Shown piece after piece: positions 1-40,032 of a DNA stretch of 41,577 nt. The first letter of the stretch is position 1; every line of letters starts with the position of its first letter. The translations under genes were made by a program, and so were the position numbers. This stretch comes from a virus, in IMG/VR virus record IMGVR_UViG_3300020195_000060, positions 1-41,577 of that record; one strand, given 5' to 3'. The notes beneath the pieces are model-generated. The model saw only the letters and a program-made list of their open reading frames with translations. It searched no databases and had not been told where the DNA came from.

Positions 1-249
1 GACGACTGCACGTCCGGCTGCCACGCCACCGACTGCGAGCATCACGGGCACGCCACCCGCGCCACTCTACCTGTACCCGGTGCCGGCGTGACTGCCGAGC
101 CGCTGACGGACACCCTCGACGTGGAGCAGGCACGGCGCTGCGTCGTTCAGGCGTCCACTTACATCGCCAACAACAATCTCGTGGCTGCCCAAGAGGAACT
201 CGCTGTCGCCCTCGCCGCCCTAGCCGCCACCCGTGAGGAGACCCCGTGA
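1..249 (+). CDS. Partial hypothetical protein, Cys/His-rich start, cut by window edge
   Basis: The reading frame is open from base 1 and stops at 247-249, so the 5' end lies outside the window. The visible 82 residues begin with a Cys/His-rich stretch (C3, C7, C12, then HHGH), continue with the TDTLDVE motif that recurs in the next genes, and end in an alanine-rich helix finishing LAALAATREETP. An internal GTG at 88 starts a MTAEPLTD variant of the MTEPL start found downstream, but no clear ribosome site precedes it, so either a longer gene or a short 88-249 gene is possible. The stop overlaps the next start (GTGA). Function unknown. Confidence 0.5.
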   Translation, partial: DDCTSGCHATDCEHHGHATRATLPVPGAGVTAEPLTDTLDVEQARRCVVQASTYIANNNLVAAQEELAVALAALAATREETP

Positions 250-692
250 GGCACAACGACCAGTACCGCGACGACCCGCAGCCCATCGGCGCTGACGGAT
301 ACTTCGCCGCCCACGACGCCGCCATCATGGTGATGAGAGAGAGAGAGCCGACCACCGCGTATCCGGCGCTTAGTGCTGAGACGCTGGCCGAATGGACGGA
401 GGCACTATCGCTGGTCATCGCCAAGGCCCGGTACGGCCCCGGAGTAGACATGGGCGGCAAGCACAACCCGTTGCCATCCGAGGTACGAGAGGCCCGCTTC
501 TTCCTTGAAGCAGTCCTAGCCCGCGCCGCCCCCACACCCCGATGGTGCGCCCGCTACTACGGCTCCGATGGGACGCTCTGCGCGACGCACAATCGTCGGT
601 TTGCTGACAACTACGCAGCATCGAAGTGCGCCCTCGCCCTCGAATACGACGCCCTCGCCGCCCTAGCCACCACCCGAGAGGAGATGCCGTGA
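246..692 (+). CDS. Hypothetical phage protein with ATTREE tail
   Basis: 148 residues from a GTG start that overlaps the previous stop by 4 bases; GTGAGGAG lies just upstream as a ribosome site. The middle part (about residues 45-95) looks helical, followed by a Cys/His patch (WCARYYG, TLCATH) and an alanine-rich C-terminal helix ending ALATTREEMP. That tail closely matches the tail of the previous gene and an inverted copy inside the next gene, so this protein belongs to a shuffled local family. No enzymatic motif was recognised. It could be a nucleic-acid or metal-binding accessory protein, but that is a guess. Confidence 0.6.
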   Translation: MRHNDQYRDDPQPIGADGYFAAHDAAIMVMREREPTTAYPALSAETLAEWTEALSLVIAKARYGPGVDMGGKHNPLPSEVREARFFLEAVLARAAPTPRWCARYYGSDGTLCATHNRRFADNYAASKCALALEYDALAALATTREEMP

Positions 693-1567
693 CCGAGCCG
701 CTGACCGCCGAGGAACTGGACAGGGTGCGTCAGATTGCCGGGACCGCGCCCGATACTGAGATTGGCCGACTGTTCGTCCGACTCGCCGCGCGCGCCACCC
801 CCACACCCGACACCCTCGACGTGGAGCGGCTGGCGATGGCGATGCGAGCCGTTTGGCCGGGTTGGTCCGAGGAAGCCTCCTCACGGGTGGCGGCGAGGAT
901 GGCGAGGGCGACGTATTCGGCGGCGATGAGGGCGGCGTACTCGCGCATCTCGCGTTGCGCTTCCTCCGTGGTCGACGCCGTGACCGAGCCGCTGTGTGAC
1001 CACGAGTGGAGCGGACCACTCGACAAGGCCCCGACGTGCGTCAAGTGCGACATGGCCTACCGCCACCCGAGAGGAGCTGAAGTGACCGAGCCGCTGAACC
1101 TGACCCCGGAACAAGCACTCGGAGTCGCGCTGTCCGTAGCCGCTCCGACGATGGTCATGGGCGACGCTCAGGCCGCCGCTCCCGACATGCTGGCCCACCT
1201 GAACGCGATGGGCTACACCCTCGCCGCACCCGAGCCGAGCGACCTTATCCATGAGGCATGGGGAGTCATCGCCAACGCTGGCGGTGGTGACTGGTCGAAA
1301 GAAACCCCGGAGTGGCGGTCCGCTGCCGCCAACTTCAGCGACAAGATGCACGCCGCCACTCTCGCCACCCCCACACCCGACACCCTCGACGTGGAGTGCC
1401 CGCATTGCGTCGTGAGCCATGAATGGCCCTGCCCGACCATCGGGCGCTGCGACGAGCCGGGCTGCGGGCGAGAGGCGACCTGTGGCTGGCCGACCAGACC
1501 GGGAGGGACCGGACCGAACGGCGGCTACCGGCGCACCTGCGGCGACCATATGCCGGTGATGTCGTGA
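689..1567 (+). CDS. Mosaic hypothetical protein with three in-frame MTEPL starts
   Basis: A continuous frame of 292 residues from the GTG at 689, which overlaps the previous stop. Two further GTG codons at 980 and 1082 begin the same ACCGAGCCGCTG (TEPL) sequence in frame. The one at 1082 has a good ribosome site (GAGAGGAG), so 1082-1567 (161 residues) may be the true separate gene. Segment 1 holds TPTPDTLDVE and a WPGW helix; segment 2 (980-1081) has CDHEW and CVKC, a likely zinc site; segment 3 has a helical DLIHEAWGVIANA region, a second TPTPDTLDVE and a Cys-rich end. Just before 1082 a different frame carries ATREELK-stop, so the fusion probably arose by recombination that shifted frames. 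Function unknown. Confidence 0.5.
   Translation: MTEPLTAEELDRVRQIAGTAPDTEIGRLFVRLAARATPTPDTLDVERLAMAMRAVWPGWSEEASSRVAARMARATYSAAMRAAYSRISRCASSVVDAVTEPLCDHEWSGPLDKAPTCVKCDMAYRHPRGAEVTEPLNLTPEQALGVALSVAAPTMVMGDAQAAAPDMLAHLNAMGYTLAAPEPSDLIHEAWGVIANAGGGDWSKETPEWRSAAANFSDKMHAATLATPTPDTLDVECPHCVVSHEWPCPTIGRCDEPGCGREATCGWPTRPGGTGPNGGYRRTCGDHMPVMS
869..966. repeat. 82-bp segment flanked by 8-bp inverted repeats, apparently inverted in place
   Basis: GAGGAAGC (869-876) and its complement GCTTCCTC (959-966) flank 877-958. The complement strand of this segment encodes AAEYVALAILAATREE, matching the tails that end the two upstream genes on the + strand (near 205-240 and 640-685). Flipping 877-958 in place keeps the surrounding frame open, because the length is unchanged, and restores that tail after WPGWSEEA and before SSVVDAVTEPL. 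Confidence 0.6.
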
Positions 1568-1818: not shown

Positions 1819-2343
1819 ATGGTTGCACCAACCAAGCTCACGCCGCTCGTCCAGCAGGCCGTCGTCGAGGTTCTGCGCAGTACCGGATGCAGTCGCACGC
1901 AGGCCGCTCGCCACGTAGAAGTGGACCGGGACACGTTCGCTCGATGGATGAAGCGAAGCGCGGCATTCCGCGGCGCGGTGGAGAAGGCCGAGAACGACTA
2001 CGACATCGCCCTCATCGGCCGGGTGCGAGCGCACGCCACCCGGAGCGAGAAGACGGCCCAGTGGCTACTGGAGCACCATCCCCGCCATCGTGCAGAATGG
2101 GGCACGAAGGCCGAACTGACGCTCGTCGGCCCTGATGGTCAGGCACCACAGGTCGAGGTGAAACACACGCATGGCCTTGCCGCAGGAACGGCCGACGCCC
2201 TTACCCAGCTCACCGCTCTCGCGGCCAGCCTCGATGTCATGGTCCGAGTGGGTCTCATCGCTCAGCCCGGAGGAAGTGAGCCGCGCCTTGTCGGCAGTGG
2301 CTCCGCTGACGACCCCGAAGTGGACGAGGTACATCCCGCATAG
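1819..2343 (+). CDS. terS: Terminase small subunit
   Basis: 174 residues. The small terminase subunit recognises phage DNA and brings it to the large subunit for packaging. Residues about 22-45 (GCSRTQAARHVEVDRDTFARW) form a helix-turn-helix, followed by a helix (FRGAVEKAENDYDIALIGRV) and a region WLLEHHPRHRAEWG, the pattern seen in many phage TerS proteins. It sits directly upstream of, and overlapping, the ATPase subunit, as expected. TAGGAT at 1806-1811 lies 7 bases before the ATG and could be a -10 element giving a leaderless transcript, although AGGA can equally serve as a ribosome site. The C-terminal 60 residues are low in motifs. Confidence 0.8.
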   Translation: MVAPTKLTPLVQQAVVEVLRSTGCSRTQAARHVEVDRDTFARWMKRSAAFRGAVEKAENDYDIALIGRVRAHATRSEKTAQWLLEHHPRHRAEWGTKAELTLVGPDGQAPQVEVKHTHGLAAGTADALTQLTALAASLDVMVRVGLIAQPGGSEPRLVGSGSADDPEVDEVHPA

Positions 2344-3661
2344 CCCGCACCCTACGCAGCGGGCGTTCCTTCTCACCGACCATATCCTTGACGTCTTCTT
2401 CGGCGGCGCTGCCGGCGGTGGCAAGAGCGACGCGCTGCTCATGGCCGCGCTCCAATACGTCGACGTCCCCCGATACAACGCCATCCTGTTCAGGCGGACC
2501 TTCCAAGACCTGAGCCTGCCGGGCGCCCTGCTCGACCGAGCGCGTGACTGGCTCCAAGGGACCGACGCCAAGTGGGATGACCGCGAGCACACGTGGCGGT
2601 TCCCCAACCCTGAGTACGACGCGACCATCTACAAGGACGGCGCGACGCTGACGTTCGCCTACCTCCAGACCGAGAACCAGAAGCACCGCTACGCGTCGGC
2701 CGACTTCCAGTTCGTCGGGTTCGACGAGGTCACGTCGTTCAGCCGGAGCATGTTCACCTTCCTGTTCTCCCGGCTGCGCAAAGACGTAGACCTCGACGTA
2801 CCGCTGCGGATGCGCTCGGCGTCGAACCCCGGCAACAAGGGCCACGATTGGGTCAAGGCCCGCTACATCGACGGTGGCGAGCCGGCCGCCGTGTTCATCC
2901 CCTCGAAGGTGCAGGACAACCCAAGCCTGAACCTCGCCGAGTACCTCCTGTCACTGGGCCAGCTCGACCCGGTCACCCGGGCGCGCCTGCTCCGTGGCGA
3001 CTGGGACGTCCGAGAGGAGGGGATGTTCAAGCGCGAGTGGTTCGGCCAGACGTTGCGCGCTGCCCCGCAGGGCCAGCTCCGCACGGTGCGCTACTGGGAC
3101 TTGGCCGCCACGGAGGAGACCGACGACAACGACCCCGACTGGACGGTCGGGGCAAAGCTCGGCATCGACCCACACACCCGGCGCCTGTACATGCTCGACG
3201 AGCGCCGGGTGCGCTACGGTCCCGGGCGGGTCGAGAACCTCGTGCGGGCGACAGCCCAGCAGGACGGCCCCACCACGGCGGTCCGCATCGAGCAGGAGCC
3301 CGGTGCCGCCGGCAAGTCGCTCATCAACTACTACTCGCGCCACGTGCTCCAAGGCTTCAACGTCCGTGGCATCCCATCTACGCAGAGCAAAGAGACGCGC
3401 GCAGCCCCCTTCGCATCGCAGGCCGAAGCGGGTAACATCATCGTGGTCGAGGGGCCGTGGGTCACGGCGTTCCTCGACGAGGCAGAGGGGTTTCCGATGG
3501 TCGAGCACGATGACCAAGTCGACGCGTGGTCCGGCGCGTTCCATGACCTCATGCGTGGCGGGACCGCCAGCAGCGAGAGCTACATCGGGACGCCCCGCGA
3601 GGAGGTCGTCCGCAAGGGCGACCTGACCCTGCGCGGACCCCGCTACCTCGACAAGGAGTGA
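2234..3661 (+). CDS. terL: Terminase large subunit (ATPase/nuclease)
   Basis: The motor ATPase and nuclease that translocates and cuts phage DNA. Walker A is GGAAGGGKS (about nt 2401-2427), with a Walker B-like VGFDEVT near nt 2717. The RNase H-like nuclease motifs are RYWDLAATE (about 3090-3116) and DDQVDAWSGAF (about 3510-3542). ATG 2234 (MSWSEW) is chosen because family members usually begin close to this SPEE...W.RYIPH segment. ATG 2171 with GAGGTG upstream would add 21 residues but overlap terS by 173 bases, and GTG 2276 or TTG 2288 are shorter options. The order terS-terL-portal is the canonical packaging module. Confidence 0.92.
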   Translation: MSWSEWVSSLSPEEVSRALSAVAPLTTPKWTRYIPHSPHPTQRAFLLTDHILDVFFGGAAGGGKSDALLMAALQYVDVPRYNAILFRRTFQDLSLPGALLDRARDWLQGTDAKWDDREHTWRFPNPEYDATIYKDGATLTFAYLQTENQKHRYASADFQFVGFDEVTSFSRSMFTFLFSRLRKDVDLDVPLRMRSASNPGNKGHDWVKARYIDGGEPAAVFIPSKVQDNPSLNLAEYLLSLGQLDPVTRARLLRGDWDVREEGMFKREWFGQTLRAAPQGQLRTVRYWDLAATEETDDNDPDWTVGAKLGIDPHTRRLYMLDERRVRYGPGRVENLVRATAQQDGPTTAVRIEQEPGAAGKSLINYYSRHVLQGFNVRGIPSTQSKETRAAPFASQAEAGNIIVVEGPWVTAFLDEAEGFPMVEHDDQVDAWSGAFHDLMRGGTASSESYIGTPREEVVRKGDLTLRGPRYLDKE

Positions 3662-3664
3662 TGG

Positions 3665-5155
3665 GTGGCTGACCTCTATCCCGAGCCCATGCAGGCCGGC
3701 CAGAAGATGCTGGACACCCGCCTTGGGCCAGTCGACGAGGAGCGCCAGACGTTCCTCCGCAAGGCAGCGTTCATCGACCAAGCGCGGCTCGCCCGTTACG
3801 CCACCGCCGAGACGTACTACGACGGGCTCCAGACCACGTACCTGACCGACCGAGCGAAGACCTACCTCGAAGCGAACGGCATCGCGTATCAGGAGAACTT
3901 CTGCGAGGTCATCGTCGACGCCATGGTCGAGCGCCTCTCGGTGGTGGGCGTGCGCTCCGACAGCGAAGTGTTCGACGCGTGGGTCTGGACTGACTGGTGG
4001 GACCACAACGAGGGCGACGTCCTCCAGCTCACCGTCCACACCGAGGCCGCGAAGAAGGGCGACGCCTTTGTCATCCTCGAATGGAGCGCGAAGCTCGGTC
4101 GTGTCTGCGCACACTTCAACCGCCCCGAGCTGATGAACCCGGTCTATCGTGAGGGCCGGCTCATGTACGTCGCGAAGGTGTGGGACAGCGAGGCCGAGAG
4201 CCCGACCAACCCGACCGGCATGGCCGTGCGCCGGATGAACCTGTACTACCCGGACCGAGTCGAGAAGTGGTTTGCCACCTCGTCAGGCGACAAGGCGGCG
4301 TGGGGCCGCTGGCTCGACGACACCGACACTGAGTGGCCGGTCGCATGGACGTACGAGGGCAAGCCGCTGGGCATCCCGGTCATCCACTTCGCGAACAAGG
4401 CCCGCGGCGACCACTTCGGCCGACCCGAGCACTTGGGCGCCATCCCGCAGCAGAACCGCCTGAACAAGGAACTGCTGGACCTCTCGATGGTCCTCGACCA
4501 GCTCGGCTTCCCGCAGCGGTACGCCATCGGCGTCGGTGACACGAGCGGGCTGAAGAACGCCCCGGGCGAGGTCTGGCGCACGGACTCCACTGACGGCACC
4601 TTCGGGCAGTTCGACGCCGCCAACCCGGCGGGTCCGCTGGCCGCCATCGAGGCGACCCTCGTACGCATGGGCACACGCTCGAACACGCCGGCTCATCGCT
4701 TCACCCTCACTGGCGGCTACCCGTCAGGCGAGGCGTTGAAGGTCGCTGAGGCCGGGCTGACCGCCAAGGCGCGCAATCGGCACACCGTATGGGGAGGTGG
4801 CCCGTGGGCCGCTACGTTCCGCATGGCCGCCGCGCTGACCATCGTGTACGGCGCCGGCTCTGGCGCGGGGCTGACGATTGGGCTCGACGAGCTGATGCGT
4901 CTGTCCATCAACCCGACGTGGGCGGACCCGGAGTCGCGCAACGAGAAGGAACATCTGGAGACGCTGGGCCTGATGCACGGGCTCGGGGTCTCGAAGCAGA
5001 CGCTCCTCACGATGATGCCGGGCATTGACGCCACGCAGGAGATGAAACTGCGTGAGCGGGAGGAGGACGCGATGGCCGAGCGTCAGGGCCGGGTGATGGA
5101 CGCCGGCCTGCCGCCACCGAGCATCGCCGGAGGAGTCGGTGGCCCGGAGAGGTAG
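3665..5155 (+). CDS. Portal protein, SPP1 gp6-like
   Basis: 496 residues from a GTG start 3 bases after the terL stop (AAGGAG at 3653-3658 as ribosome site). The portal is the dodecameric ring at the capsid vertex through which DNA enters and leaves. Length, position after terL and sequence style (long helical N-terminus with RLARYATAETYYDG, later the EHLGAIPQQNRLNKELLD and GYPSGEALKVAEAGLTAKA segments) match the SPP1 gp6-like portal family of actinophages. The C-terminus (EREEDAMAERQGRVMDAG) is the usual charged helix. A MuF-type gene follows shortly, as in SPP1. Confidence 0.88.
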   Translation: MADLYPEPMQAGQKMLDTRLGPVDEERQTFLRKAAFIDQARLARYATAETYYDGLQTTYLTDRAKTYLEANGIAYQENFCEVIVDAMVERLSVVGVRSDSEVFDAWVWTDWWDHNEGDVLQLTVHTEAAKKGDAFVILEWSAKLGRVCAHFNRPELMNPVYREGRLMYVAKVWDSEAESPTNPTGMAVRRMNLYYPDRVEKWFATSSGDKAAWGRWLDDTDTEWPVAWTYEGKPLGIPVIHFANKARGDHFGRPEHLGAIPQQNRLNKELLDLSMVLDQLGFPQRYAIGVGDTSGLKNAPGEVWRTDSTDGTFGQFDAANPAGPLAAIEATLVRMGTRSNTPAHRFTLTGGYPSGEALKVAEAGLTAKARNRHTVWGGGPWAATFRMAAALTIVYGAGSGAGLTIGLDELMRLSINPTWADPESRNEKEHLETLGLMHGLGVSKQTLLTMMPGIDATQEMKLREREEDAMAERQGRVMDAGLPPPSIAGGVGGPER

Positions 5156-5393
5156 GGCCAAGCGCGGCCTGACCATGCGCTGGCACAAGGGAGACCGGAC
5201 CGAGTTCGTGCCGTTCAACCGCGACGCCGTAGTGGTATGGCGCGACCGCTTCGGCACCGTCAACGTAGCTGGCTGGGGACCGCCCGTCGACCCCGACAGT
5301 GAGGCGTTCAACGTGGCCGTCCGCTACGTCATCGTGTCGCTGGGCCTGAACCCCATCATCGAGCCGAGCGCCGACGAGCGCCTCGATGGCTGA
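5139..5393 (+). CDS. Small hypothetical protein between portal and MuF genes
   Basis: 84 residues from the GTG at 5139, overlapping the portal end by 17 bases, with GGAGGAG upstream. An ATG at 5175 (MRWHKGDR) would give a shorter form. The C-terminal half (VDPDSEAFNVAVRYVIVSLGL) looks compact and folded. The last 8 bases overlap the MuF gene start. Small genes are often found here in actinophages, but no function is recognised. Confidence 0.6.
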   Translation: MARRGRAKRGLTMRWHKGDRTEFVPFNRDAVVVWRDRFGTVNVAGWGPPVDPDSEAFNVAVRYVIVSLGLNPIIEPSADERLDG

Positions 5394-6276
5394 CCTCTAC
5401 CAGCTCGTCGACGAGCAGCGGTCGTACCTGTCCTCGCTGGACCGCGTCACAGCCAGCCAGATGCACGCTGCGTACTCGAAGGTGCTTGACCAAGCCCGCA
5501 TCGACTACAAGGGCTTCACGGCTCGTCTGGAGACGTGGCAGCAGGCGCACCCGTCGATGGACCCGCGCGGTGCCTCGCCGCCCCGCCACTGGGTCTTCCA
5601 GCAAGCGCGCTACCAAGACCTCGTCACGCAGCTCGAAACGAACCTCACCTACTACGCCAAGGTGAGCGCGCTCTCCATCACCGAGGCGCAGCGCGCCGCC
5701 ATGGGCAAGGCGCAGGGCGACATGACCGAGGTCATCCGGGCCTCGATGGGTGGCGACGAGAAGGCCGCCGGCCATATCTCGATGGCCGTCCTGCCAGAGG
5801 ACGCCATCGAGGCGGTCGTGGGCTTCACGAGCGACGGGACACCGCTGAACACCCTTCTGCGTGAACGGTCCAACCGAACGTGGCAGGACGCCAGCTCGAC
5901 CATCGTCAACGGAGTCGCGCTCGGGCAGGGTCCGGTGGAGGTGGCGAAGCGCCTCGACACGCAGCTCACCACGCTCCACTGGCAGAACCTCCGGCTCGCC
6001 CGAACTGAGTCCATGCGGGCCTACCGCGAGGCGCAGCGGGTGAACATGCTCCAGAACTCCGAGGTCATCGCCGGCTGGCGCTGGTCGAGCGCCGCTGACG
6101 CCCGGAGCTGCCCCATCTGCCTCGGCCAGCACGGCAAGGTCTTCCCGCTGAAGCACGTGGCGCCCGGCGACGTCCCGCCCGACCTCGCTCACCACAAGGG
6201 CTTGGGCGACATCCTGTCCAAGCCGCCCCACACCCACGCTCGCGTGGACCTCGACATCGAGGCCACGGTGCGCTGA
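5386..6276 (+). CDS. MuF/SPP1 gp7-like head morphogenesis protein
   Basis: 296 residues. MuF proteins are minor head components placed next to the portal and needed for DNA entry or exit. The signature is in the C-terminal part: LARTESMRAYREAQ (about residues 205-218), then GWRWSSAADARSCPICLGQHGK (about 231-252) with CPIC, and an ending PPHTHARV. Canonical members end H-x-N-C-R-C; here both cysteines are replaced (THARV), while the canonical HPNCRC motif appears at the start of the giant gene 2.5 kb downstream. The gene may therefore be one piece of a rearranged or duplicated MuF pair. The start overlaps the preceding gene. Confidence 0.85.
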   Translation: MADLYQLVDEQRSYLSSLDRVTASQMHAAYSKVLDQARIDYKGFTARLETWQQAHPSMDPRGASPPRHWVFQQARYQDLVTQLETNLTYYAKVSALSITEAQRAAMGKAQGDMTEVIRASMGGDEKAAGHISMAVLPEDAIEAVVGFTSDGTPLNTLLRERSNRTWQDASSTIVNGVALGQGPVEVAKRLDTQLTTLHWQNLRLARTESMRAYREAQRVNMLQNSEVIAGWRWSSAADARSCPICLGQHGKVFPLKHVAPGDVPPDLAHHKGLGDILSKPPHTHARVDLDIEATVR

Positions 6277-8607: not shown

Positions 8608-8823
8608 ATGGCGAGAGGGGTCATCACCGTCACCGTCGGGTCGCGCATCCGGCCAAGGGGCATCTTGCTCCTCGCCCGAGTCGCGGCCCGTCTTGGCGCC
8701 CTGCGCGTGGCGGCGTGGGCCATCCGCCGCGTCCGGGTCGAGGTCAACTTCGACGGCGGGCCGTGGGTGCTGTCCGGCGTTCAGGTCTACCTGACCGTCG
8801 ACGGTCAGCGCCACCATGGCTGA
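8608..8823 (+). CDS. Small basic, partly hydrophobic protein
   Basis: 71 residues from ATG 8608. It contains an amphipathic or membrane-like stretch GILLLARVAARLGALRVAAW (about residues 18-37) followed by RRVRVEVNFDGGPW and a beta-like end. It overlaps the start of the giant gene by 8 bases, so translation of the giant gene is probably coupled to it. It could be a small membrane-associated protein; no specific role is known. Confidence 0.5.
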   Translation: MARGVITVTVGSRIRPRGILLLARVAARLGALRVAAWAIRRVRVEVNFDGGPWVLSGVQVYLTVDGQRHHG

Positions 8824-11800
8824 GGCGGTCGCCGCCCGAGTCCCGGTCGTCGACTACATGCACACGCACCCGAACTGCCGGTGCGTGATGGTCCCGGTCG
8901 CGAAGTCGTGGACGGAGCTTGGCTACCCTGAGATTGACGCGGCCATCGCCTCGGGCGAGCTGGATGGGCCGGCCAAGACTCAGAGCGGCGAGGACGTCCT
9001 GCGAGGCATGTCGGTCCGCCAGCAGCAGCGCACCCTCGGTCGAGGTCGCTGGGGCGCGTGGCGCGGCTCGACTGTTCCGGGCGCACCGGAGGGCGTCGGG
9101 CTCCCGCTGAGCAGGTTCTACGTGGACCGCTACAACGAGGAGTGGGGCTGGATGCTCCAGCTCCGCAACTTCGAGTCGACCATGACCGAGCTGGCGCAGG
9201 AGACCTCGCCAGAGGTCGCTGAAGCCGTCAGGACGTGGCGCTACCCGCCCAAGCAGCTCGTACGCCAGTACCGCTCGGAGATGCCCCTGCCGGCGCTCCC
9301 GCCGGCCGTTGCGGAGACCGTCCGCGAGGAGACCGAGATTGCCATGGGCCGCTGGCAGACGAAGATAGCGACCGAGATTGCCGACGACATCGGCGAGGAG
9401 GTCGCCACCGACGACGCGCGGGTCGACGCCAAGATTGTCCAACTGAACGCCGCCGTTCGGGCAGCCCTCGACCCGGTCAAGACCGAGGTGCGCATCCGCG
9501 TCCCCGAGGCCGTGCTCGGTAGCATCCTCGACGACGGACGGTTGAAGTCGCAGTTCGAGGTGGGCCGCTCCCGTGGGATGTTCGACCCGGACACACGGGC
9601 GAATACCGAGCGCATCCGGTTCGGCTACGAGGCCGTTTGGCCTGACGGCAATCCGCTCAACCGCATCGAGTTCCCGGTCGAGCAGCGGCCCATCTACGGC
9701 TACATCGGCGACGTGTGGGAGGACGGGGCGACAGACCACTACGGCAACGTGGTCATCCGCCTGCGTGACACCGTGGACGCACGAACCACCGTGACCGGCG
9801 TCGACTCGCTCATCTTCGGGACACGCACCGAATACTCGCAGGCCGCCGCTGTGCCGTACGTCGAACCGACAATCGCCATGATGCCGACCCTGCGCGGTGC
9901 CGCCGACGTCCTCGACTCCAGAAACCTCGAAGACCTCGGGCTCGGCGAATACATCGAGGCGCAGGTCCACGGTCAGGTCACGCTCGACGACATCGCCGAG
10001 GTGGTGTTCACGGAGTCGCTACCCGAAGCGTTCATCGGGGACGCGATTGACGAAGACGACTTCACGGAGATGCAGACCAACGCCAATCAGGGCAGGGAGC
10101 GGCGCGAGCAACTGAAGACCCGCCTGACTGAGCTGGGCATCCAGTGGCGCACCGTTCCTACGTGGAACGAGGACCGTGTTGCCGGCAAGGCCGTCGACCC
10201 CAAGCCCGCAATCGCCAAGCCCACCGCCAAGCCGCGCGCTGTTGCACGTGAAACACGGACCCCGGTGCGCAGGCGAGCGGCGGCGCCTGCGCCGATGTAC
10301 GGCCCGGTCGAGTCTGCGTGGGTCGACCCCGGCGAGAAGCCCAACGAGCGGATGCCCGAGGACATCACCTCGTGGCCGAACGACGTGGCGATGGAGTGGT
10401 TCGACGCGAAGCGCAAGCTCGTGCAGGCATGGACGAACGCCATCCAGACCGGGCTCTCCATGGGGCTCATCACCAAGGAAGACGCGGTCGAACGGGGCTG
10501 GGACTACCCGAGCGGGCGCATCGACAGCATCGGCCCGCTGCCGGCCACGCTCTACCACGCCACCACGGCGGTCAGCGCCATCATGGCGACGGGCCTGAAG
10601 ACGCGCGACGAGCTGTCCGGCGTCACGGCCCTCGGCGGCGGCCCGACCGACACCATCTCGTTCACGACCGACAGGGCCATCGCGGTGCGCATCGCCGAAG
10701 TGTTCATCGAGGCGCACGATGTCCTGACCGGCGCGCTGACGTTCGAGACGCTGGTCGAGCGGGCCGAGGCCGGCGGGTTCCTGAACGAGTGGATTGGCAG
10801 CGTGGTCGGTGGGCGAGACCTGCCAGTGGGGCCGGAGGGTGACGCCCGGCGGGCGACGTTCTACCGATTGTTCCGCGACCGGCTGAAGTACGAGCGCGCA
10901 TCCTTCCCCCTGCCGGCGAACGAGCTGCCGGCGGGGTCCATCCCTGACGCTGACGCGGCGTCGGTCGGTGGCGACGGCGTGGTGCGCTACTACGCATGGG
11001 ACCGGCCGATGACCGAGGACGAGTACCTCGAAGACCTGTTCGACGCGTGGCGCGGCCCGTACAACACGTGGCAGGAGGTCAAGGGTGGGCCGATGGACCC
11101 GCTGTTCTTCAGCCCGGACATCGAAGCCCTGAAGCGCATGGACGTGTCGCAGGTCGGCGTGGTCGAGGGGACGCCCGTGCCGGGTGCGGTCGGCGTGCAG
11201 GTCAGCAGCCTCGGCGAGTGGCGCACGTGGGCCGGCGCTGCCGTCACCGTCCAGCAGATGGTCATGCAGGGGCCGGCGGTGGCCGTGGAGGAGGCAGTCA
11301 GGTCGGAGGAGGAACAGCCCGAGGCAGGTCCACCGGCCGACTACGTGCCGGCGCCCATCGGCCTGCGCTTGGACCGCCCCAAAGACCCGCAGCGTGCCCG
11401 GGTGTTCGACACGGCGCTCGTCGCCCGCGAGGCCATCGCCAAGGCGCTCGGCATCAACCCGTCCGAGTCGCGCTGGTCGGGCGACGTCATCATCGAGAGC
11501 AACTCGTATCCACGTGGCGGGTACTTCAACTGGGAGGGCTCGCTCGCCATCCGCGATGCGACCGAGCAGTCCATCGCCCGGCGCATCGGGCTGGTCGTCC
11601 ACGAGATGCTCCATGCCGCGTCGGCCGGCTCGCACCCTGCCGCCTACCGCGTGTGGCCGGGCTGGGAGGAAGGCGTCGCCGAGGGGCTGACGCAGATACT
11701 CGTCGGCGAGGTCGCTACGACCATGGGCTACGACGCCGCGTCGGTCAACGAGACCCGCGGCATCGAGGGGTACGCGGAGTACACCGGCCCGCTGGAGACC

Positions 11801-14800
11801 ATCCGCGGGCTCCTCGGGATGACGCCCGAGGCGTTCTACGTGGGCCTCATCCGCACGCCCATCATGGACCGCCCCAAGCAGGTCAAGGACTGGGCCTACG
11901 ACAAGCTCACCACACCGAATGACTGGCGGCGCGTGTGGGCCGCCGTGCGGGCGCTGGACACCGCCAACCCCATCGCCAGCGAGGAGTACCGGGCTCCCGA
12001 GCGCATGGGCCGCCGCGGTCGACTGCGCGACCTGTCTGACGTGGTCGAGGAGCTGCGCCTGCTCGTCGACATGCCGGCCCCGAGCTTCTACGGCCCGATG
12101 CTGAACCTGCCCGGGCGCGACGTCGCCAACCGCCTTCAGGAGTACCTGAACGCCTACCAAGAGACCCGGCAAGCGTTGACCCCGGAGGAGCGCGAGGCGA
12201 CGCGCGAACAGAACAACCGGCTGCTGCGCCAGCTCGGCGGGGTGGGCGCGTCCGGCACCGTCTCAGTCGATGGGTTCGGGTTCGGCGTGGCGCCCGCTGA
12301 CACGCGCTCGCTCAACGAGGTGGCCCGCAGCGCCTACCAGCAGGCCGTGGTGGCCGAACCCGGCATCACGGCTGACGTGGTCGAGATTGGCGCGGCGCTG
12401 GGGCTGGACCCGGACTACGAAGGCAGGGTGCTCGACAACCGCCTGAAGTCGGAGTTGAGTCTGCGCAGGAAGATTGGCAACGACGCCGCGGCCGAGGCCG
12501 TGACGTTCGAGCAGGCGGCGGCCAATCTGAAGGACACGGTCCGATACACCTATGTCGTCGAGGTCGAGGGCTACGCGGCCTCGTATCGAGCGACCGAGGC
12601 GGCGTTCCTCGCCCGGGGCTACACCCTTCTGCGCACCAAGAACTTCTGGCATCCCGAGCCGCGCCAGTATCAGGGGCTCAACTCGGTCTTCATCAGCCCG
12701 ACCGGGATGCCCGTCGAGGTCCAGTTCCACACCGCCGACAGCCTGCGGGCGAAGAACCTCAACCACGAGCTGAAGGACGAGTTCGAGCTGGCGACCACGA
12801 CCGAGGAGCGCCGGGAGGAGCTGCTCCAGCAGATGCTCGACAATCAGGCGCCCATCCCCGACCCGCCCGACGTGTACGGCATCGGCGAGAGCGTCGACCG
12901 CACGCCCATGCTCGGCCCGGTCGAGAGCATCATCGAAGGCGCCATCGGCAGCGCCGCGCAGTCGGCCTTCACGGTCGTAATCCCCGACCTCAACACCGCG
13001 CGCCTCGAAACGCGCCTGCACGCGGTCGAGCCGAGCTGGAACATCCGGCGCAACCAGCGCGAGCTGGACGAGCTGGTCCTTGTCTTCGGCTTCCCGACGA
13101 CCGGCCAAGAGGGCACGGTGCTCCGCTCCGACTCGGGCCGGTTCCCGGTGTACGTGACGTATGCCATCGGCACGGGCGAGCCGTTGTCCGCCTACCAAGA
13201 CGGCAACCTCATCCTCGGCGCCAGCGTCAACCAGAGCGTCGTCACGGGCATGTACCAGCAGGTGCTCGCCCGAGAGGGCACAGCGGGCCTGACGCCCGCA
13301 GAGAAGGTCGACGCGGGTCCGACGCTGACGCTGGGCGGTGCTGGCGTGGTCGACTTCGAGATTGGCCGGGTCACGCCGGCAGAGGTCGAGGCCGAGGCTG
13401 AGTCCGACTGGGGCCGCGCGCCTGACTCCGTCCCGTGGACAGACCTCGTGTCGAACGTGATGCTCGACTATCCGACCGACGTGTCGAAGGCGGGGACCAT
13501 CGAGCGTATCGCATGGGTCGGAGGGCGCGCGTTCGACGGCACGGAGGGCTGGGTCTCCTACATCCGCCGTGACTCGCTCGGCGTCGCGGCAGCCATCTAC
13601 GCCATCGACGTCGTCAACGGCGCGCCGCGCTTCGCCGAGCTGGCGTTCCACCCCGACTACCCGAACATGCTGACGCCCGACACGACGCGCGAGCTGCGCC
13701 GCCATGCGTGGCTGGATGGCTTCGCGTCGCCGCCGGCTCCTGCGCCCGAGCGGACGCTCGTCCGGGCTAACGCCACCCGGAGGATGCGGTTGCGCACGAG
13801 CTGGAACGACTCCACTCGCCGCGAGAACGAGCTGGCGGCGGACCTGACCGGCGACCTCACGAACCAGTTGGTCGCGTTCTCGAACGGCGTGGGCTACTTC
13901 AACGCCGACTCGCGCCTCGTGATGTTCCGGCGCAACGGGGAGCGCGTCATCCTCGTGAGCCCTGACGTCACGAACCCCGATGATGCCGAGCTGCTCGCCA
14001 TCTTCAATCGGACGCCCTTCCCGACGACGCCCGCGCCGACGGGCGTGCCAGTGAGCTACATCTCCCGGGAGCGAGGCCGCTGGGAGTCGGTGTGGAGCGC
14101 CTACGGGACGGCTATCCGCGCGGACGCACACTGGAGCGACCCCGGTGTGTGGGAGCTGGACGTCGAGGGCCAGCCTATCCGCTACTGGGTCACGACCGAG
14201 GGCGTCGCCGGGGTGTGGGAGCTGCACATCGACGGCGACGGCTCGGTGAGCCTGAACCCCGACTTCGACATGACGGGCCTCGATGACGCCGCCATCACGG
14301 CGCGCTTCAGCATCGAGCCGAACACGCGCCCGACCGTAGTGGCCGGGCTTGGGCGCGAGCGCGCCGCGGTCACGATAGAGCGCGTGTCGTCCCCCGACTT
14401 CACGCGAAGGGCGATTGCGCTGGGCCTGCCGACGCATATGTCGGGCCGAGTTGGCCGGGCCATGCAGGCGCTCACTACCAGCATCGGAACGCAGGTTCTC
14501 GCCCTGTTCGACGGCGGCGCACTTCAGGCGTTCAGGGTCGACCATGGCGACCGAGTCCATGGCGACCGAGTAGCCATCGTGACCGACGACGCGTCGCCGC
14601 TCACGGACGCCGTACTGCACTCGTATCTCGCGGCGGCTCCCGGGGTCGTAGTGACCCCTCCAGACCCACTCATGGTGGACGACGACGTACTGTGGGCCGA
14701 CCTCGGTGCCCGCTCCACCGTCCGCGCGGGCGAAGACATCATCGCCGAGACCCCTGACGGCCTGCTCGTTTACTACGCCCTCGGGCTCGCGACAGCCACG

Positions 14801-17800
14801 AAGGACACAGCGACCGGCGTCATCCGATACCGCAGCGCCATCGGGCCGGTAGCCGCCCGGGCGGTCTGGAGCGACCCGAACGTGGACGGCAGCACCGGCT
14901 CGGCCCCAGCCGCCCCGGCCCCAGCCGCCGAGCTGCCGGCCGATTGGGACGAGGCGGTCGGCTCGTTCATCCTCGACCGCTGGGACGGCACGAACATCAC
15001 GGGCACGGTCACGGTCACGGAGTGGGACCGCAGCAACCCGGTCGAGGACGGCCCTGCCGGCGCCATCGTTCGCATCCCACCGCCCGGCGGCAACGTGGTG
15101 ATGTACGCGTCGTACGACGGCTTGGGCAAGCCTGACGGGTTCCTGTTCCTGCCGAGTGACGACGATGGCGAGCTGGGCATCGTGGTGACCAGACCCGGGC
15201 TCGACGACATCACGAGCGGCGCCATCGCAAGTGAGCTGCGCACCCGCGCCCGTCAGGCGGTCTTCATCCTGTCCGCGACGTGGGCTCGCGCCAACGAGGC
15301 CCAGCGTCAGACCGTCGGTGTCCGGGTCTTCATTCCGCCACCCGCGCCAATCCAAATCATCATTCCACCACTCGCGCCCCGGCCCGCCATGCCGACGGTC
15401 GCCGGCATGGGCTACGACGCCATCCAGACCGACTACGACTTCGACGCGACGATGAACACCGTCGCTGGTGGCATGGAACAGGACGGTCAGGTCAACGACA
15501 TCTCCGAGGTGCTGGACGGCCCGCCCAACACGTTCGCCCTGCACGGCCCGTACAGCTCACCGTGGAGCGGCGAGACGAACGGCGGCGTCGTCTACTACGG
15601 CCCGCACGGCGGGGCGGTGGCCGTGGCCCACATCGGCATGGCGCAGGGCGGTCAGACGACGCCCGACAACCCGGACGGAATGCGCTCGACCGGCGTTCAC
15701 TACATCAAGGTCCATCCGTCGTTCCGGCGACTCGGGATTGCCACGAGGCTGTATGAGTGGGCCACGCTGGCCGGGCTCCAGATTGAGGAGGAGTCGGGTC
15801 TCCACGGCCTGACCACTGACGGTGGCCGGTATTGGTCGGCCCGCCGAGCCAAGCCGTTCAGCCGGGTGTCCATGGCCGTCAGCCGGATGCGGCCCGAGCT
15901 GGGCGATGCGACCACGTTCGACGACGTCATCCATCTGCGCAAGAACAAGGTCATCGCCGAGGCGACCGACGCGCTCCCGAAGGAGCTGGCCGCCGACGGT
16001 GTCGACCTCATCGAGGGGGCGCCGGCCGCGTACTTCCTCGGGCGCCCGGGCTCCGCGTACGGCACAGCGAGCCCCTCAGCCACGCTCCCGAGCGAGATTG
16101 GCAAAGCGAACATCAAGCGCGTCATCCCGGCCAGCAACCCCGTCATCGGCCGCTTCGAGAACGGCGCGGAGCCGTCGCAGACCATCGAGATAGACCCGAC
16201 CGAGGCGACCCTCGACGACATCGACTTCGCGGGCGCGTATGCTGTCCGTCGGAACAAGCAGGATGCCGTCATCACCACGCTGGTCGGTGACGTGTTCGAG
16301 CGGCTTGGGCTGCCGGCCAACGGCGTGTCCATCCGCATCGAGGGCATCCCGCTGGGCCGCATGGCCGAGGTCTTCGCTGACGTGGGCGTCATCGTTCCGA
16401 TGGCGACCATTCACGACGCTACGGGCATGGTCGAGTTCAGCTCGTACGACGCGATGCTGACCGACGAGGTGAGGGCCGCGTTCGCCACGCTGGCGCAGAA
16501 GTACGGCGCCACGATGAACGTCCTGCCGGCGCATATCCGGTGGTACTGGCACGACCAAGAAACGCTCGACGCAGCAAAGGAATGGTTCAGTGGACCCCAA
16601 GACGCCAGCTTCCTCGCCAACGCCATCAAGTCCCGCCTTGTCGCTGCGGGAGATGCTCGACGCGCAAAGCGCATCCGAGCGCGCCGACGCCGTAGCCGCG
16701 TTCGACCGGGCGAGGGCGACGGGGCTGGAGGCGCACCGAGCGGGGACGGTCTCGCCGCGAGTGACGATGCTCGTGCCCAGCCTCTTGCCAGACGAGCCTT
16801 CCCTGCCGGAGCCATCCGACTCGACCCCGACCTGACCCGACCCCTTCGCGGGGAAAGCACGTTCCTGTTGGGCGAGGTCCGAACGCAGGCCGCGGGGGTG
16901 CTCGCGGAGGTCGAGGCTGCGACCGGGCTCGTGAACGTCAACTGGACGGGCCGGGTGAAGTGGCTTGTGCCCGGCGGCAAGCATGACGGAGCGCAGGCTG
17001 CGCTCGGCTGGGACGGCACCCTCTACGTAGACAAGAACCTCCTCCTCTCGACCGACACGGAGGCACTGCGCCACGTGCTCGTCCACGAGATGCTTCACGC
17101 GGTGAGCCAGACCACGGCTGAGAACTTCCAGCGCGACCCGTTGATGGAGGAGGGCATGGTCGAGGGTCTGGCTCGGGACATCACGGGCTACACGACTACC
17201 GCCTACCAGACCGCCTTGACCGCGTGGGAGCAGCTCCGTCAGGCGATGGACGTGCCCAAGCGAACGTTCTACGCAAAGGTCTTAGCGGAGCCGCTGGAGA
17301 CCCGGCGTGAGGTGCTGCGCGACTGGGCGGCGGCGCGCATGGGCGTGCCGGAGGGCTATCGGGCGGTCGTGCTGGCGACCTTCCGAAGCGAGGGTGCCGG
17401 CGACGCGGGACAGCGGACCATGCTGGCGCTCGATGCGTTCCGCATCCTGTTGGGCAAGCCCGCGGATAGCTTCTGGCGCGACATCGCCCAATCGGCTGAC
17501 CCGTGGCGGGCGATGATGGCCCTGTCGGCCGACGTCAGGGATGCAGCGGAGCGGAATGGGTGGCCGAGCTGGGCTGGTGCGCTGGGCATCGCGGTCGGGT
17601 TCGTGCGCGACATCGCCGAGGTCGACGGCCGTCCGTGGCCGCAACTGGCTATGGACATCATCGCGGGGCGTGTTACGCTGGCGCAAGCAGGTGCCAGCGT
17701 CCATGGGGCAGTTCCGCCGGACGGCGCCGCGCCTGCTGTTCGGGCTATGCGTGAGCGCCGAACGAAGCGAGCACTGGAGAAGCGGATGTCGAGACGGATG

Positions 17801-17878
17801 GCAGTCGAGGCGGCAGAGGTCGTGCGGGCGACACGCCGGCGCGGTGGTGGCGACTGGCCGCCCGTGGTGGCGCCATGA
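8816..17878 (+). CDS. Giant MuF-linked polyvalent/effector protein (3020 codons)
   Basis: The longest gene in the window, in the head module. In order: residues 16-60, HTHPNCRCVMVPVAKSWTELG and QSGEDVLRGM, the typical C-terminal end of a MuF head protein; 224-345, DUF3626-like (ILDDGRLKSQFE, RPIYGYIG, TVTGVDSL); 579-830, ADP-ribosyltransferase-like (LYHATT at 579, SFTTD at 615); 929-957, zinc-peptidase-like HEMLH plus EEGVAEG; 1239-1305, RelA/SpoT-like (KDTVRYTYVV, YQGLN at Y1285, EVQFHT at E1301); about 1460-2140, diverged beta-rich repeats near 100 residues apart; 2304-2309, GNAT motif RRLGIA; 2757-2784, a second HEMLH and EEGMVEG. Such multidomain proteins are thought to be packaged and injected with phage DNA to act on the host. 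All domain names are by-eye inferences. Coding character switches frame at about 16640-16835, so the end may be a separate gene. Confidence 0.8.
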   Translation: MAEAVAARVPVVDYMHTHPNCRCVMVPVAKSWTELGYPEIDAAIASGELDGPAKTQSGEDVLRGMSVRQQQRTLGRGRWGAWRGSTVPGAPEGVGLPLSRFYVDRYNEEWGWMLQLRNFESTMTELAQETSPEVAEAVRTWRYPPKQLVRQYRSEMPLPALPPAVAETVREETEIAMGRWQTKIATEIADDIGEEVATDDARVDAKIVQLNAAVRAALDPVKTEVRIRVPEAVLGSILDDGRLKSQFEVGRSRGMFDPDTRANTERIRFGYEAVWPDGNPLNRIEFPVEQRPIYGYIGDVWEDGATDHYGNVVIRLRDTVDARTTVTGVDSLIFGTRTEYSQAAAVPYVEPTIAMMPTLRGAADVLDSRNLEDLGLGEYIEAQVHGQVTLDDIAEVVFTESLPEAFIGDAIDEDDFTEMQTNANQGRERREQLKTRLTELGIQWRTVPTWNEDRVAGKAVDPKPAIAKPTAKPRAVARETRTPVRRRAAAPAPMYGPVESAWVDPGEKPNERMPEDITSWPNDVAMEWFDAKRKLVQAWTNAIQTGLSMGLITKEDAVERGWDYPSGRIDSIGPLPATLYHATTAVSAIMATGLKTRDELSGVTALGGGPTDTISFTTDRAIAVRIAEVFIEAHDVLTGALTFETLVERAEAGGFLNEWIGSVVGGRDLPVGPEGDARRATFYRLFRDRLKYERASFPLPANELPAGSIPDADAASVGGDGVVRYYAWDRPMTEDEYLEDLFDAWRGPYNTWQEVKGGPMDPLFFSPDIEALKRMDVSQVGVVEGTPVPGAVGVQVSSLGEWRTWAGAAVTVQQMVMQGPAVAVEEAVRSEEEQPEAGPPADYVPAPIGLRLDRPKDPQRARVFDTALVAREAIAKALGINPSESRWSGDVIIESNSYPRGGYFNWEGSLAIRDATEQSIARRIGLVVHEMLHAASAGSHPAAYRVWPGWEEGVAEGLTQILVGEVATTMGYDAASVNETRGIEGYAEYTGPLETIRGLLGMTPEAFYVGLIRTPIMDRPKQVKDWAYDKLTTPNDWRRVWAAVRALDTANPIASEEYRAPERMGRRGRLRDLSDVVEELRLLVDMPAPSFYGPMLNLPGRDVANRLQEYLNAYQETRQALTPEEREATREQNNRLLRQLGGVGASGTVSVDGFGFGVAPADTRSLNEVARSAYQQAVVAEPGITADVVEIGAALGLDPDYEGRVLDNRLKSELSLRRKIGNDAAAEAVTFEQAAANLKDTVRYTYVVEVEGYAASYRATEAAFLARGYTLLRTKNFWHPEPRQYQGLNSVFISPTGMPVEVQFHTADSLRAKNLNHELKDEFELATTTEERREELLQQMLDNQAPIPDPPDVYGIGESVDRTPMLGPVESIIEGAIGSAAQSAFTVVIPDLNTARLETRLHAVEPSWNIRRNQRELDELVLVFGFPTTGQEGTVLRSDSGRFPVYVTYAIGTGEPLSAYQDGNLILGASVNQSVVTGMYQQVLAREGTAGLTPAEKVDAGPTLTLGGAGVVDFEIGRVTPAEVEAEAESDWGRAPDSVPWTDLVSNVMLDYPTDVSKAGTIERIAWVGGRAFDGTEGWVSYIRRDSLGVAAAIYAIDVVNGAPRFAELAFHPDYPNMLTPDTTRELRRHAWLDGFASPPAPAPERTLVRANATRRMRLRTSWNDSTRRENELAADLTGDLTNQLVAFSNGVGYFNADSRLVMFRRNGERVILVSPDVTNPDDAELLAIFNRTPFPTTPAPTGVPVSYISRERGRWESVWSAYGTAIRADAHWSDPGVWELDVEGQPIRYWVTTEGVAGVWELHIDGDGSVSLNPDFDMTGLDDAAITARFSIEPNTRPTVVAGLGRERAAVTIERVSSPDFTRRAIALGLPTHMSGRVGRAMQALTTSIGTQVLALFDGGALQAFRVDHGDRVHGDRVAIVTDDASPLTDAVLHSYLAAAPGVVVTPPDPLMVDDDVLWADLGARSTVRAGEDIIAETPDGLLVYYALGLATATKDTATGVIRYRSAIGPVAARAVWSDPNVDGSTGSAPAAPAPAAELPADWDEAVGSFILDRWDGTNITGTVTVTEWDRSNPVEDGPAGAIVRIPPPGGNVVMYASYDGLGKPDGFLFLPSDDDGELGIVVTRPGLDDITSGAIASELRTRARQAVFILSATWARANEAQRQTVGVRVFIPPPAPIQIIIPPLAPRPAMPTVAGMGYDAIQTDYDFDATMNTVAGGMEQDGQVNDISEVLDGPPNTFALHGPYSSPWSGETNGGVVYYGPHGGAVAVAHIGMAQGGQTTPDNPDGMRSTGVHYIKVHPSFRRLGIATRLYEWATLAGLQIEEESGLHGLTTDGGRYWSARRAKPFSRVSMAVSRMRPELGDATTFDDVIHLRKNKVIAEATDALPKELAADGVDLIEGAPAAYFLGRPGSAYGTASPSATLPSEIGKANIKRVIPASNPVIGRFENGAEPSQTIEIDPTEATLDDIDFAGAYAVRRNKQDAVITTLVGDVFERLGLPANGVSIRIEGIPLGRMAEVFADVGVIVPMATIHDATGMVEFSSYDAMLTDEVRAAFATLAQKYGATMNVLPAHIRWYWHDQETLDAAKEWFSGPQDASFLANAIKSRLVAAGDARRAKRIRARRRRSRVRPGEGDGAGGAPSGDGLAASDDARAQPLARRAFPAGAIRLDPDLTRPLRGESTFLLGEVRTQAAGVLAEVEAATGLVNVNWTGRVKWLVPGGKHDGAQAALGWDGTLYVDKNLLLSTDTEALRHVLVHEMLHAVSQTTAENFQRDPLMEEGMVEGLARDITGYTTTAYQTALTAWEQLRQAMDVPKRTFYAKVLAEPLETRREVLRDWAAARMGVPEGYRAVVLATFRSEGAGDAGQRTMLALDAFRILLGKPADSFWRDIAQSADPWRAMMALSADVRDAAERNGWPSWAGALGIAVGFVRDIAEVDGRPWPQLAMDIIAGRVTLAQAGASVHGAVPPDGAAPAVRAMRERRTKRALEKRMSRRMAVEAAEVVRATRRRGGGDWPPVVAP
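16590..16835 (+). CDS. Overlapping frame, better coding signal than the giant gene here
   Basis: 81 residues from GTG 16590, in a different frame from the giant gene, with AAAGGAA 8-10 bases upstream. It reads as a normal protein (SLREMLDAQSASERADAVAAF, then a Pro/Ser-rich end), and most of its codons end in G or C. The giant frame across the same bases turns Arg-rich (RRAKRIRARRRRSR) with many A/T third bases. Either this is a separate small gene embedded in an accidentally open frame, or a one-base change moved the real frame and the upstream protein truly ends at 16835. Confidence 0.5.
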   Translation: MDPKTPASSPTPSSPALSLREMLDAQSASERADAVAAFDRARATGLEAHRAGTVSPRVTMLVPSLLPDEPSLPEPSDSTPT

Positions 17879-19220: not shown

Positions 19221-19264
19221 TTCAGGCCCGCCGCTTCCTTCGGCAGGAGAGCGGCGGGCCTGAA
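19221..19264 (+). terminator. Strong hairpin, 15-bp perfect stem
   Basis: TTCAGGCCCGCCGCT (19221-19235) and its exact complement (19250-19264) with a 14-base loop, 11 bases after a stop codon. There is no U tract, so it may end transcription weakly or stabilise RNA ends upstream of the scaffold and capsid genes. Confidence 0.7.
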
Positions 19265-35167: not shown

Positions 35168-35328
35168 GCAAACACCCCCGCACCTACGTTGGCTTGGACG
35201 GCGAGCCCTACACGGTGGACATGCACGACGGTTTCCCTGACGCCGCCGACCCCGGCACCGACCCCATCACCGAGCCCGAACCCGAGGATGACCCTTCGGT
35301 CGGCCACGAAGCGCCAGAGGAGGACTGA
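35164..35328 (+). CDS. Small acidic protein with duplicated C-terminus
   Basis: 54 residues from an ATG overlapping the previous stop. N-terminus PRTYVGLDGEPYTVDMHDGF, then a Pro/Asp/Glu-rich tail PITEPEPEDDPSVGHEAPEE, encoded by a 65-bp sequence that is repeated exactly at the end of the next gene. The tail is probably disordered. Function unknown. Confidence 0.55.
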   Translation: MSKHPRTYVGLDGEPYTVDMHDGFPDAADPGTDPITEPEPEDDPSVGHEAPEED

Positions 35329-35536
35329 CGTGCTGGACGTGGTCCGCACCCGCGTCTACATCAACGGCGTCGAGATTGGTCCGCCGCCGCACAGATGTTG
35401 GTCGGCGACGGGGGTGCCGACCATCTTCACCCGCGTCTACATCAACGGCGCATGGACCAAGCCCAACGACGCCGACCCCATCACCGAGCCCGAACCCGAG
35501 GATGACCCTTCGGTCGGCCACGAAGCGCCAGAGGAG
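35258..35536 (+). repeat. 65-bp exact direct repeat plus 23-bp exact repeat
   Basis: 35258-35322 and 35472-35536 are identical over 65 bases. Between them, CACCCGCGTCTACATCAACG plus GCG occurs at 35347-35369 and 35428-35450. The copies are 214 and 81 bases apart and keep the coding frames, consistent with recent nested duplication. Confidence 0.85.
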
Positions 35537-38806: not shown

Positions 38807-39001
38807 GTGGACGAACTACGTGACGACGTGAAGTACGCGATGGCCTGCCCGAGCTGTGGTCGCCAGAAGGTGACGACCGAGCAGCTCGCTCGCGACGTCG
38901 GCCTGAGCCTGCGCACCGTGTCGAGGTTCGTGACCGGCGAGCAGGTCTCGGCGGGCACTCGGAAGAAACTGGAAGCGTGGCTCGACGCCGCGACAGCCTA
39001 G
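38807..39001 (+). CDS. Small helix-turn-helix protein
   Basis: 64 residues from GTG 38807, with GGAGGAAC directly upstream. A CPSC pair near residues 14-17 is followed by a Xre/LacI-like HTH (TTEQLARDVGLSLRTVSRFV, then SAGTRKKLEAWL). It lies next to a large inverted repeat and just upstream of the recombination genes, so it may regulate them. With one domain only it would act as a dimer. Not evidence by itself for lysogeny. Confidence 0.65.
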   Translation: MDELRDDVKYAMACPSCGRQKVTTEQLARDVGLSLRTVSRFVTGEQVSAGTRKKLEAWLDAATA

Positions 39002-39030
39002 CTGTCGCAACGGAGCGAGAGGATGAACGC

Positions 39031-40032
39031 ATGACCCACCCCCGCGAATGGCACGAAGAACGACGACGAGGCATCGGCGCCTCGGACGTTGCCGCCGTGC
39101 TCGGCATCTCCCCATGGAAGTCCCCGGCGCAGGTCTGGCGCGACAAGGTCACGCCGCTGCCTGATGACTACGTGGAACCTCCGACTCACCTGAAGCTCTG
39201 GCTCGGCACCCGGCTGGAGGAGGTCATCGCCGAGCTGTACACCGCCGACACCGGCATCAACCTGCGCCGCCCACCCGGTGCGTACTGGCACCGCAACGGC
39301 GTCATGTTCGCCAACCTCGACTTCATCCGGCTGAACCATTCCGGGCACGTCGAGGCCAAAGTCGCCAGCTTCGGCGAGGCGTGGGGTGAGCCCGGCACCG
39401 ACGAGGTGCCCAAGCACTACTACCCGCAGGTGCAGGCGCAGCTCGCCTGTCGGCCGGCGGAATACGCCGAGATGGCCGTCCTCTGGCACGGTCAGGAGTT
39501 CCGGCGCTATCCCGTCCCGATGGACGACGACTACGTCGCCGACCTCGACGAGTACCTGACGTCGTGGTGGAACCAGTACGTGGTCGGCGAGGTCGAGCCA
39601 CCGCTGACCGCCATGGACATCGGCGAGGTCAAGCGCCGGTTCCCGCGGGACGACGAGACCGAGATGGTCGCGACGCCCGAGCAGACGTTGACCGTCGACG
39701 AGCTGCGACTGGCGCGGGTCGCGACCAAGGCGGCCGAGCGGGTCGAGGGCGACATCGAGGTCGCCATCCGGGCGGCCATGGGCACCGCAGCGAAGCTCGT
39801 CGGCCCGGGCTTCAACATCACCTATCGGACGTCCAAGCCGTCGACGTCGGTGTCGTGGGAGCAGGTGGCCGCCGCATGGCGCTCGGCCATCACCGACGCT
39901 CGGCTGATGCCGCTCGAACAGCAAGCCGCATTCCTCGACGGGCTGGACCTCGATGCTGTCGAGTCCATCTACACCGCGACCAAGGAAGGCAGCCGGGTAT
40001 TCCGGCCGACATGGAAGGAGCACAAGGGATGA
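39031..40032 (+). CDS. YqaJ-type (lambda exo-like) recombination exonuclease
   Basis: 333 residues; ATG 39031 preceded by GAGAGGA. A PD-(D/E)XK nuclease: RRRGIGASDVAAVLGISPWK at the N-terminus is the family signature, followed by LKLWLGTRLEEVIAELY, Asp97 (ANLDFIRL), Glu108-Ala-Lys110 (VEAKV) and YYPQVQAQLAC. It degrades one DNA strand to produce tails for the RecT partner, whose gene overlaps its stop by 4 bases. The last 100 residues are helical with SKPSTSVSWEQVAAAW, common in phage members. Confidence 0.9.
   Translation: MTHPREWHEERRRGIGASDVAAVLGISPWKSPAQVWRDKVTPLPDDYVEPPTHLKLWLGTRLEEVIAELYTADTGINLRRPPGAYWHRNGVMFANLDFIRLNHSGHVEAKVASFGEAWGEPGTDEVPKHYYPQVQAQLACRPAEYAEMAVLWHGQEFRRYPVPMDDDYVADLDEYLTSWWNQYVVGEVEPPLTAMDIGEVKRRFPRDDETEMVATPEQTLTVDELRLARVATKAAERVEGDIEVAIRAAMGTAAKLVGPGFNITYRTSKPSTSVSWEQVAAAWRSAITDARLMPLEQQAAFLDGLDLDAVESIYTATKEGSRVFRPTWKEHKG

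Follow-up and report, generated by a model that had tools for sequence, protein, structure and literature searches.

How does a stretch of DNA inside one tiny phage gene come to carry, on its opposite strand, the tail codons of the genes that precede it? The question is raised by positions 877–958 of a 41,577-bp uncultivated phage record (IMGVR_UViG_3300020195_000060; record class: linear), the whole of which is referred to here as the window. The initial annotation, made from the sequence, offered two answers: a fossil micro-inversion produced by template switching, or a small invertible switch that swaps a protein segment.

The segment lies within positions 1–1700, a string of tiny overlapping genes directly 5' of the gene for the terminase small subunit (1819–2343, PHROG match). 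This is followed by the terminase large subunit (2171–3661), an SPP1-type portal (3665–5155) and a Mu F-like protein (5386–6276), and the window terminase is 35–49% identical to the terminases of Gordonia, Brevibacterium and methanogen phages. Near the right end of the record, at 38977–41093, a gene for a RecE-like YqaJ exonuclease adjoins a RecT gene. The record also contains one 3020-aa open frame (8816–17878), very large for a phage genome of 41.6 kb; its sole match is DUF3626, and repeated internal motifs are suspected in it.

The boundary repeat of the tiny-gene array

The joints between the tiny genes carry a common repeat of ~45 bp, consisting of tail codons, a ribosome site (GAGAGGAG) and a GTG start, with a full form close to GCCGCCCTAGCCACCACCCGAGAGGAGATGCCGTGACCGAGCCGCTGAC. 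The repeat encodes the last codons of the upstream gene (ALATTREEMP*) and the first codons of the downstream gene (VTEPL, from the GTG). Its core, CCRCCACCCGNGAGGAGNNNNNGTGA, occurs in three copies in the window with none expected in shuffles, and in the three window copies of the repeat GAGGAG is followed by 5 nt and then by GTG. Sequence matches place the tail half of one forward copy at 205–249 (..ALAALAATREETP*, with the next GTG at 246) and a full forward copy at 650–704 (..LAALATTREEMP*, the GTG start of gene 689, VTEPL). A third forward copy, at 1060–1097 (GAGAGGAG, GTG start at 1082), is out of frame with the upstream gene and reads ..YRHPRGAEVTEPL in the frame of that gene.

Another phage record, G002 (29,140 bp), contains three copies of the same repeat, up to 98% identical over 51 nt, and record G003 has a weaker form; no relative of the window terminase was found in the portion of G002 covered. 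One G002 copy is translated in a different frame (..RRPSHHPRGDAVTEPL..), and because this copy and the window copy at 1060 are both read in other frames, the repeat seems to be kept as DNA, beyond its role as a mere protein tail. In phage record L033 the repeat at 105–560 (minus strand) is also out of frame, and two small genes there form one open frame (..RRPSHHPRGDAVTEPL..), an arrangement comparable to that at 1060–1097 in the window. When 84,980 genomes were scanned for the pattern, 11 scattered actinobacterial chromosomal matches emerged, which share the TTREE/GAGGAG core only and are weakly similar outside it; since the core alone is held in common, no host or prophage can be named from them.

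The repeat recalls the start-associated sequences (SAS) of cluster K mycobacteriophages, 13-bp elements with the consensus GGGATAGGAGCCC that precede mostly ATG starts (PMC3203893). Both are non-palindromic repeats with AGGAG, located a few bases 5' of many small-gene starts and nearly always in one orientation, and each of the three window copies sits a few bases before a start and contains the ribosome site. In contrast to the SAS, the repeat described here is ~45 bp long, spans the upstream tail codons as well as the downstream VTEPL, uses a GTG start and has a different sequence, its core CCRCCACCCGNGAGGAGNNNNNGTGA departing from the 13-bp consensus.

Other short modules occur in the same record. 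An exact 65-nt direct repeat at 35258–35322 and 35472–35536 covers the last codons of two consecutive genes (DPITEPEPEDDPSVGHEAPEE*) and ends in a ribosome-site-like GAGGAG, and is thus a further duplicated tail-plus-ribosome-site module outside positions 1–1700. A second module, encoding TPTPDTLDVE, lies mid-gene in two of the tiny genes (784–826 and 1354–1396, 43 nt at 93%), and 29 nt of it are exact in L033 (12913–12941). Short tail and linker modules move between these phages, and the tiny-gene array looks like a mosaic of them. RecE/RecT-type enzymes act on short homologies. As a single-strand-annealing pair, the RecE-like YqaJ exonuclease and RecT of this phage could recombine short repeats and help to shuffle the boundary repeats, and the boundary repeat, common to phages that otherwise show little resemblance, probably offers a handle by which small genes are shuffled in RecT/RecE fashion.

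The reversed segment, its arms and its ends

Segment 877–958 lies, as first described, between 8-bp inverted repeats, GAGGAAGC at 869–876 and GCTTCCTC at 959–966; the arms are exact at these places and cannot be extended. The description of its minus strand as encoding the tail of the neighbouring genes (..AAEYVALAILAATREE; tail codons QREMREYAALIAAEYVALAILAATREE) is borne out by inverted matches to two forward copies. The reverse strand of 877–958 is 92% identical to 205–240 over 36 nt, and that of 877–926, the core of the homology, is 84% identical to 634–683 over 50 nt. The match to 205–240 (E = 4e-7) is the sole strong inverted match in the 41.6 kb besides a local palindrome at 19221–19264. 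This last is a 45-nt near-perfect palindrome (GGCCCGCCGCT..AGCGGCGGGCC), intergenic and terminator-like, without a T run.

The reversed segment corresponds to the left half of the boundary repeat, with a tail unique to it (..EEAQREMREYAALIAAEY..). The right half, GCCGTGACCGAGCCGCTG, is still forward at 977–994 (GTG start at 980), where it is identical to the 687–704 region and to another phage record, and it stands 18 nt downstream of the reversed piece without a left half of its own. The spacer between the two, CGTGGTCGAC (967–976), is absent from the other repeat copies, and no close donor for it was found in the window, where the best matches carry 1–2 mismatches.

Codon usage gives a second line of evidence. 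A codon table built from 15 larger genes of the phage gives a poor −6.5 bits over 877–958 to the plus frame of gene 689 and +19.6 bits to the minus frame. Reversing 877–958 yields a codon-usage gain of 25.7 bits for the region; in 135 control stretches of real genes, the best reversal of similar length gained 0.8 bits on average and never more than 17.3. These gains are not exact probabilities, as the table was built from the control genes themselves, a circularity that biases their gains downward, and tiny genes may differ in codon use. Three L033 open frames, partly spurious, were dropped from the controls. In a free scan of gene 689 the best 82-bp reversal fell at 875–956, and the other window genes gave at most 16.8 bits.

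Two properties of the arrangement were discarded as evidence. Both orientations of the segment are indeed open, as had been pointed out, but 62% of random 82-bp flips in the genes of this phage stay open too. Arms of 8 bp are likewise uninformative taken alone, 8-bp inverted repeats at 70–95 bp spacing occurring about 1.2 times per kb here. What is unusual is that one arm stops just where the homology does (p = 0.003 for that very position, 0.03 if a few bases of play are allowed).

The claim that exactly 82 bp were inverted holds at one end. As judged from where the homology stops, the left end is fixed at 877; the right end is doubtful, boundary spacing and codon usage both preferring a position at the far end of the right arm or beyond, ~966–976. 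The minus-strand reading keeps good codon usage beyond the 8-bp arm to ~976 (..ASTTEEAQREM..), which favours a right end at 966 or beyond. Turning over 877–958 does bring the tail (..VWPGWSEEAQREMREYAALIAAEYVALAILAATREE) back in frame with gene 689, as proposed, but it restores no stop and leaves 18 nt between GAGGAG and GCCGTG versus the usual 2. Flips whose ends sum to 1851 (for example 875–976) bring back the 2-nt spacing but not the frame, and have no flanking repeat. Because no simple flip restores reading frame and boundary together, in-place reversal on its own only partly recreates a normal gene end, and at least one more small change (an indel) is needed.

Origin of the reversed segment

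These observations are probably best explained by a single, now fixed micro-inversion, most likely of the template-switch type, through which several small genes came to share an open frame. The ancestor would have carried an ordinary boundary repeat at the end of gene 689, with tail codons, GAGGAG and the GTG of the next gene, so that the unflipped end would have read as a forward ..EEAQREMREYAALIAAEYVALAILAATREE.. tail followed by GCCGTGACCGAG. A piece of ~80–100 bp with the left half of the repeat would then have been turned over in place, most likely as replication changed strands where a short inverted repeat allowed it and later returned (template switching, giving a spacer inversion). 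The bases gained at the right junction may be the left arm copied in reverse or the product of a second small change. One template-switch event would give most of this: if reverse copying had continued through the left arm, it would have produced the right one, which would then be a copy rather than a pre-existing arm; such copying would account for 8 of the 16 surplus bases, and the ancestral gene would have had an ordinary frame and stop.

For the micro-inversion itself, the homology, the forward right half and the codon usage all argue, and the in-frame return of the tail and the position of the arm at the end of the homology speak for it as well. Template switching is a reasonable mechanism for it. 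DNA polymerase template switching between short inverted repeats has been described as the source of spacer inversions in yeast coding genes (PMC8604942; also PMC8794818). In both cases a piece between short inverted repeats is reversed within coding sequence and the protein is changed, with no dedicated recombinase. In yeast, however, the arms are ~10 bp or more, the spacers are a few bp and the inversions are seen against the ancestral sequence (PMC8604942), whereas the phage spacer is 82–100 bp, the arms are 8 bp, the right junction carries extra bases and the searches brought up no ancestral form. The segment equals the reverse complement of the expected sequence, which is known from the paralogous copies alone. 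The short arms and the 82-bp spacer, set against the yeast values of at least 10 bp and a few bp, count against the micro-inversion.

The orientation of the segment could be compared in one relative. IMGVR_UViG_3300020057_000220 (L001/L029), the sole other record covering the site, is 99.1% identical to the window over 7.2 kb, including a 50-nt indel; over 680–1370 it is identical, with the reversed piece in the same orientation. The same junction in this second, non-identical contig excludes an assembly error. The second orientation, which the initial annotation had suggested looking for, was not seen in the two contigs, a sample that a rare minority form could escape. No unflipped relative was found through terminase-based loci, among which only L001/L029 covers the site, nor through exact patterns, the flipped protein searched against phages and viral contigs, the downstream gene or plasmids. 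The one relative available for a sister-sequence comparison already has the derived form, and because no unflipped relative was found, we infer both the direction of the change and its in-place origin.

A turnover in place is probable because the left half of the repeat is reversed while the right half (977–994) is forward. An orphan forward right half is what an in-place reversal leaves, and an added inverted copy does not predict one. This bears directly on the strongest alternative, in which a piece of ~877–976 from the tail of another gene replaced the original tail with no turnover in place. The good minus-strand codon usage past the arm to ~976 would fit a donor gene, and short modules of this kind do move between these phages; this history is nevertheless unlikely, since the window, the related contigs and the viral collection were searched and yielded no donor with STTEEAQREMREY, the orphan right half is explained more simply by in-place reversal, and the presence of an 8-bp arm at the boundary would be due to chance.

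A recombinase-driven switch that exchanges the C-terminal segment of gene 689 is highly improbable. Like programmed inversions (phase variation by site-specific recombinases), the locus has a segment between inverted repeats, and both of its orientations are open; unlike them, it has arms of only 8 bp, a single orientation in two contigs and no recombinase found in the record, and openness in both orientations is shared by 62% of arbitrary flips. Known invertase sites are far longer than 8 bp. The earlier remark that no recombinase is seen nearby extends to the entire, possibly incomplete phage record, in which neither a serine resolvase/invertase (PF00239) nor a tyrosine integrase (PF00589) domain was matched while positive controls were detected; a recombinase of the host could still act on the site. 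The reversed piece is most likely a scar left by a single error of replication and since fixed, not a working switch.

Equally improbable is a genuine minus-strand gene that shares the tail motif, such as the 107-aa frame 1053–730: the minus-strand coding signal over 877 to ~988 would suit it, but the signal is lost on both sides, the frame has no stop at the end of the tail but reads on into ASSDQPG.., no family was matched by it, and elsewhere the tail motif is always a gene end adjoining a ribosome site.

The probable gene fusion and its meaning

In its present arrangement the locus reads as one open frame of 292 aa (689–1567, plus strand), joining what were units 689, 980 and 1082; it belongs to no PHROG family, and no PHROG relatives of it were found. 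Under the micro-inversion, the GTG at 980 would have lost the stop and the ribosome site that preceded it, and genes 689, 980 and 1082 would thereby have become a single frame.

The change may also affect the mRNA. In predictions for naked RNA, in which pairing that translating ribosomes may prevent is allowed, the reversed piece pairs with the region around the start of gene 689. Again for naked RNA, the ribosome site of this gene is predicted to be 13% unpaired in the present form, 52% when the segment is turned over and 63% when the segment is shuffled, and the predicted minimum energy is −279.5 kcal/mol for the present form versus −225.7 kcal/mol for the turned-over form. One reading goes further: by pairing with the ribosome sites of genes 246 and 689 (36–50 nt) and of gene 1082 (~17 nt), the reversed piece would lessen their translation. 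It is very doubtful, though, that the reversed half-repeat has been retained as a cis-acting translation damper, a built-in antisense to the surrounding boundary repeats; were this model true, a reversed start-associated repeat would act as a damper of translation in cis.

Neither the inversion nor the boundary repeat overturns current views. The finding illustrates a known type of mutation well, in surroundings that allow it to be read. Small inversions within genes are easily missed, as alignments show them as mere clusters of mismatches, and it is the several paralogous boundary-repeat copies in the phage that bring this one to light. For tiny phage genes, it means that one accident can delete a stop and a ribosome site together, fusing them into one open frame.
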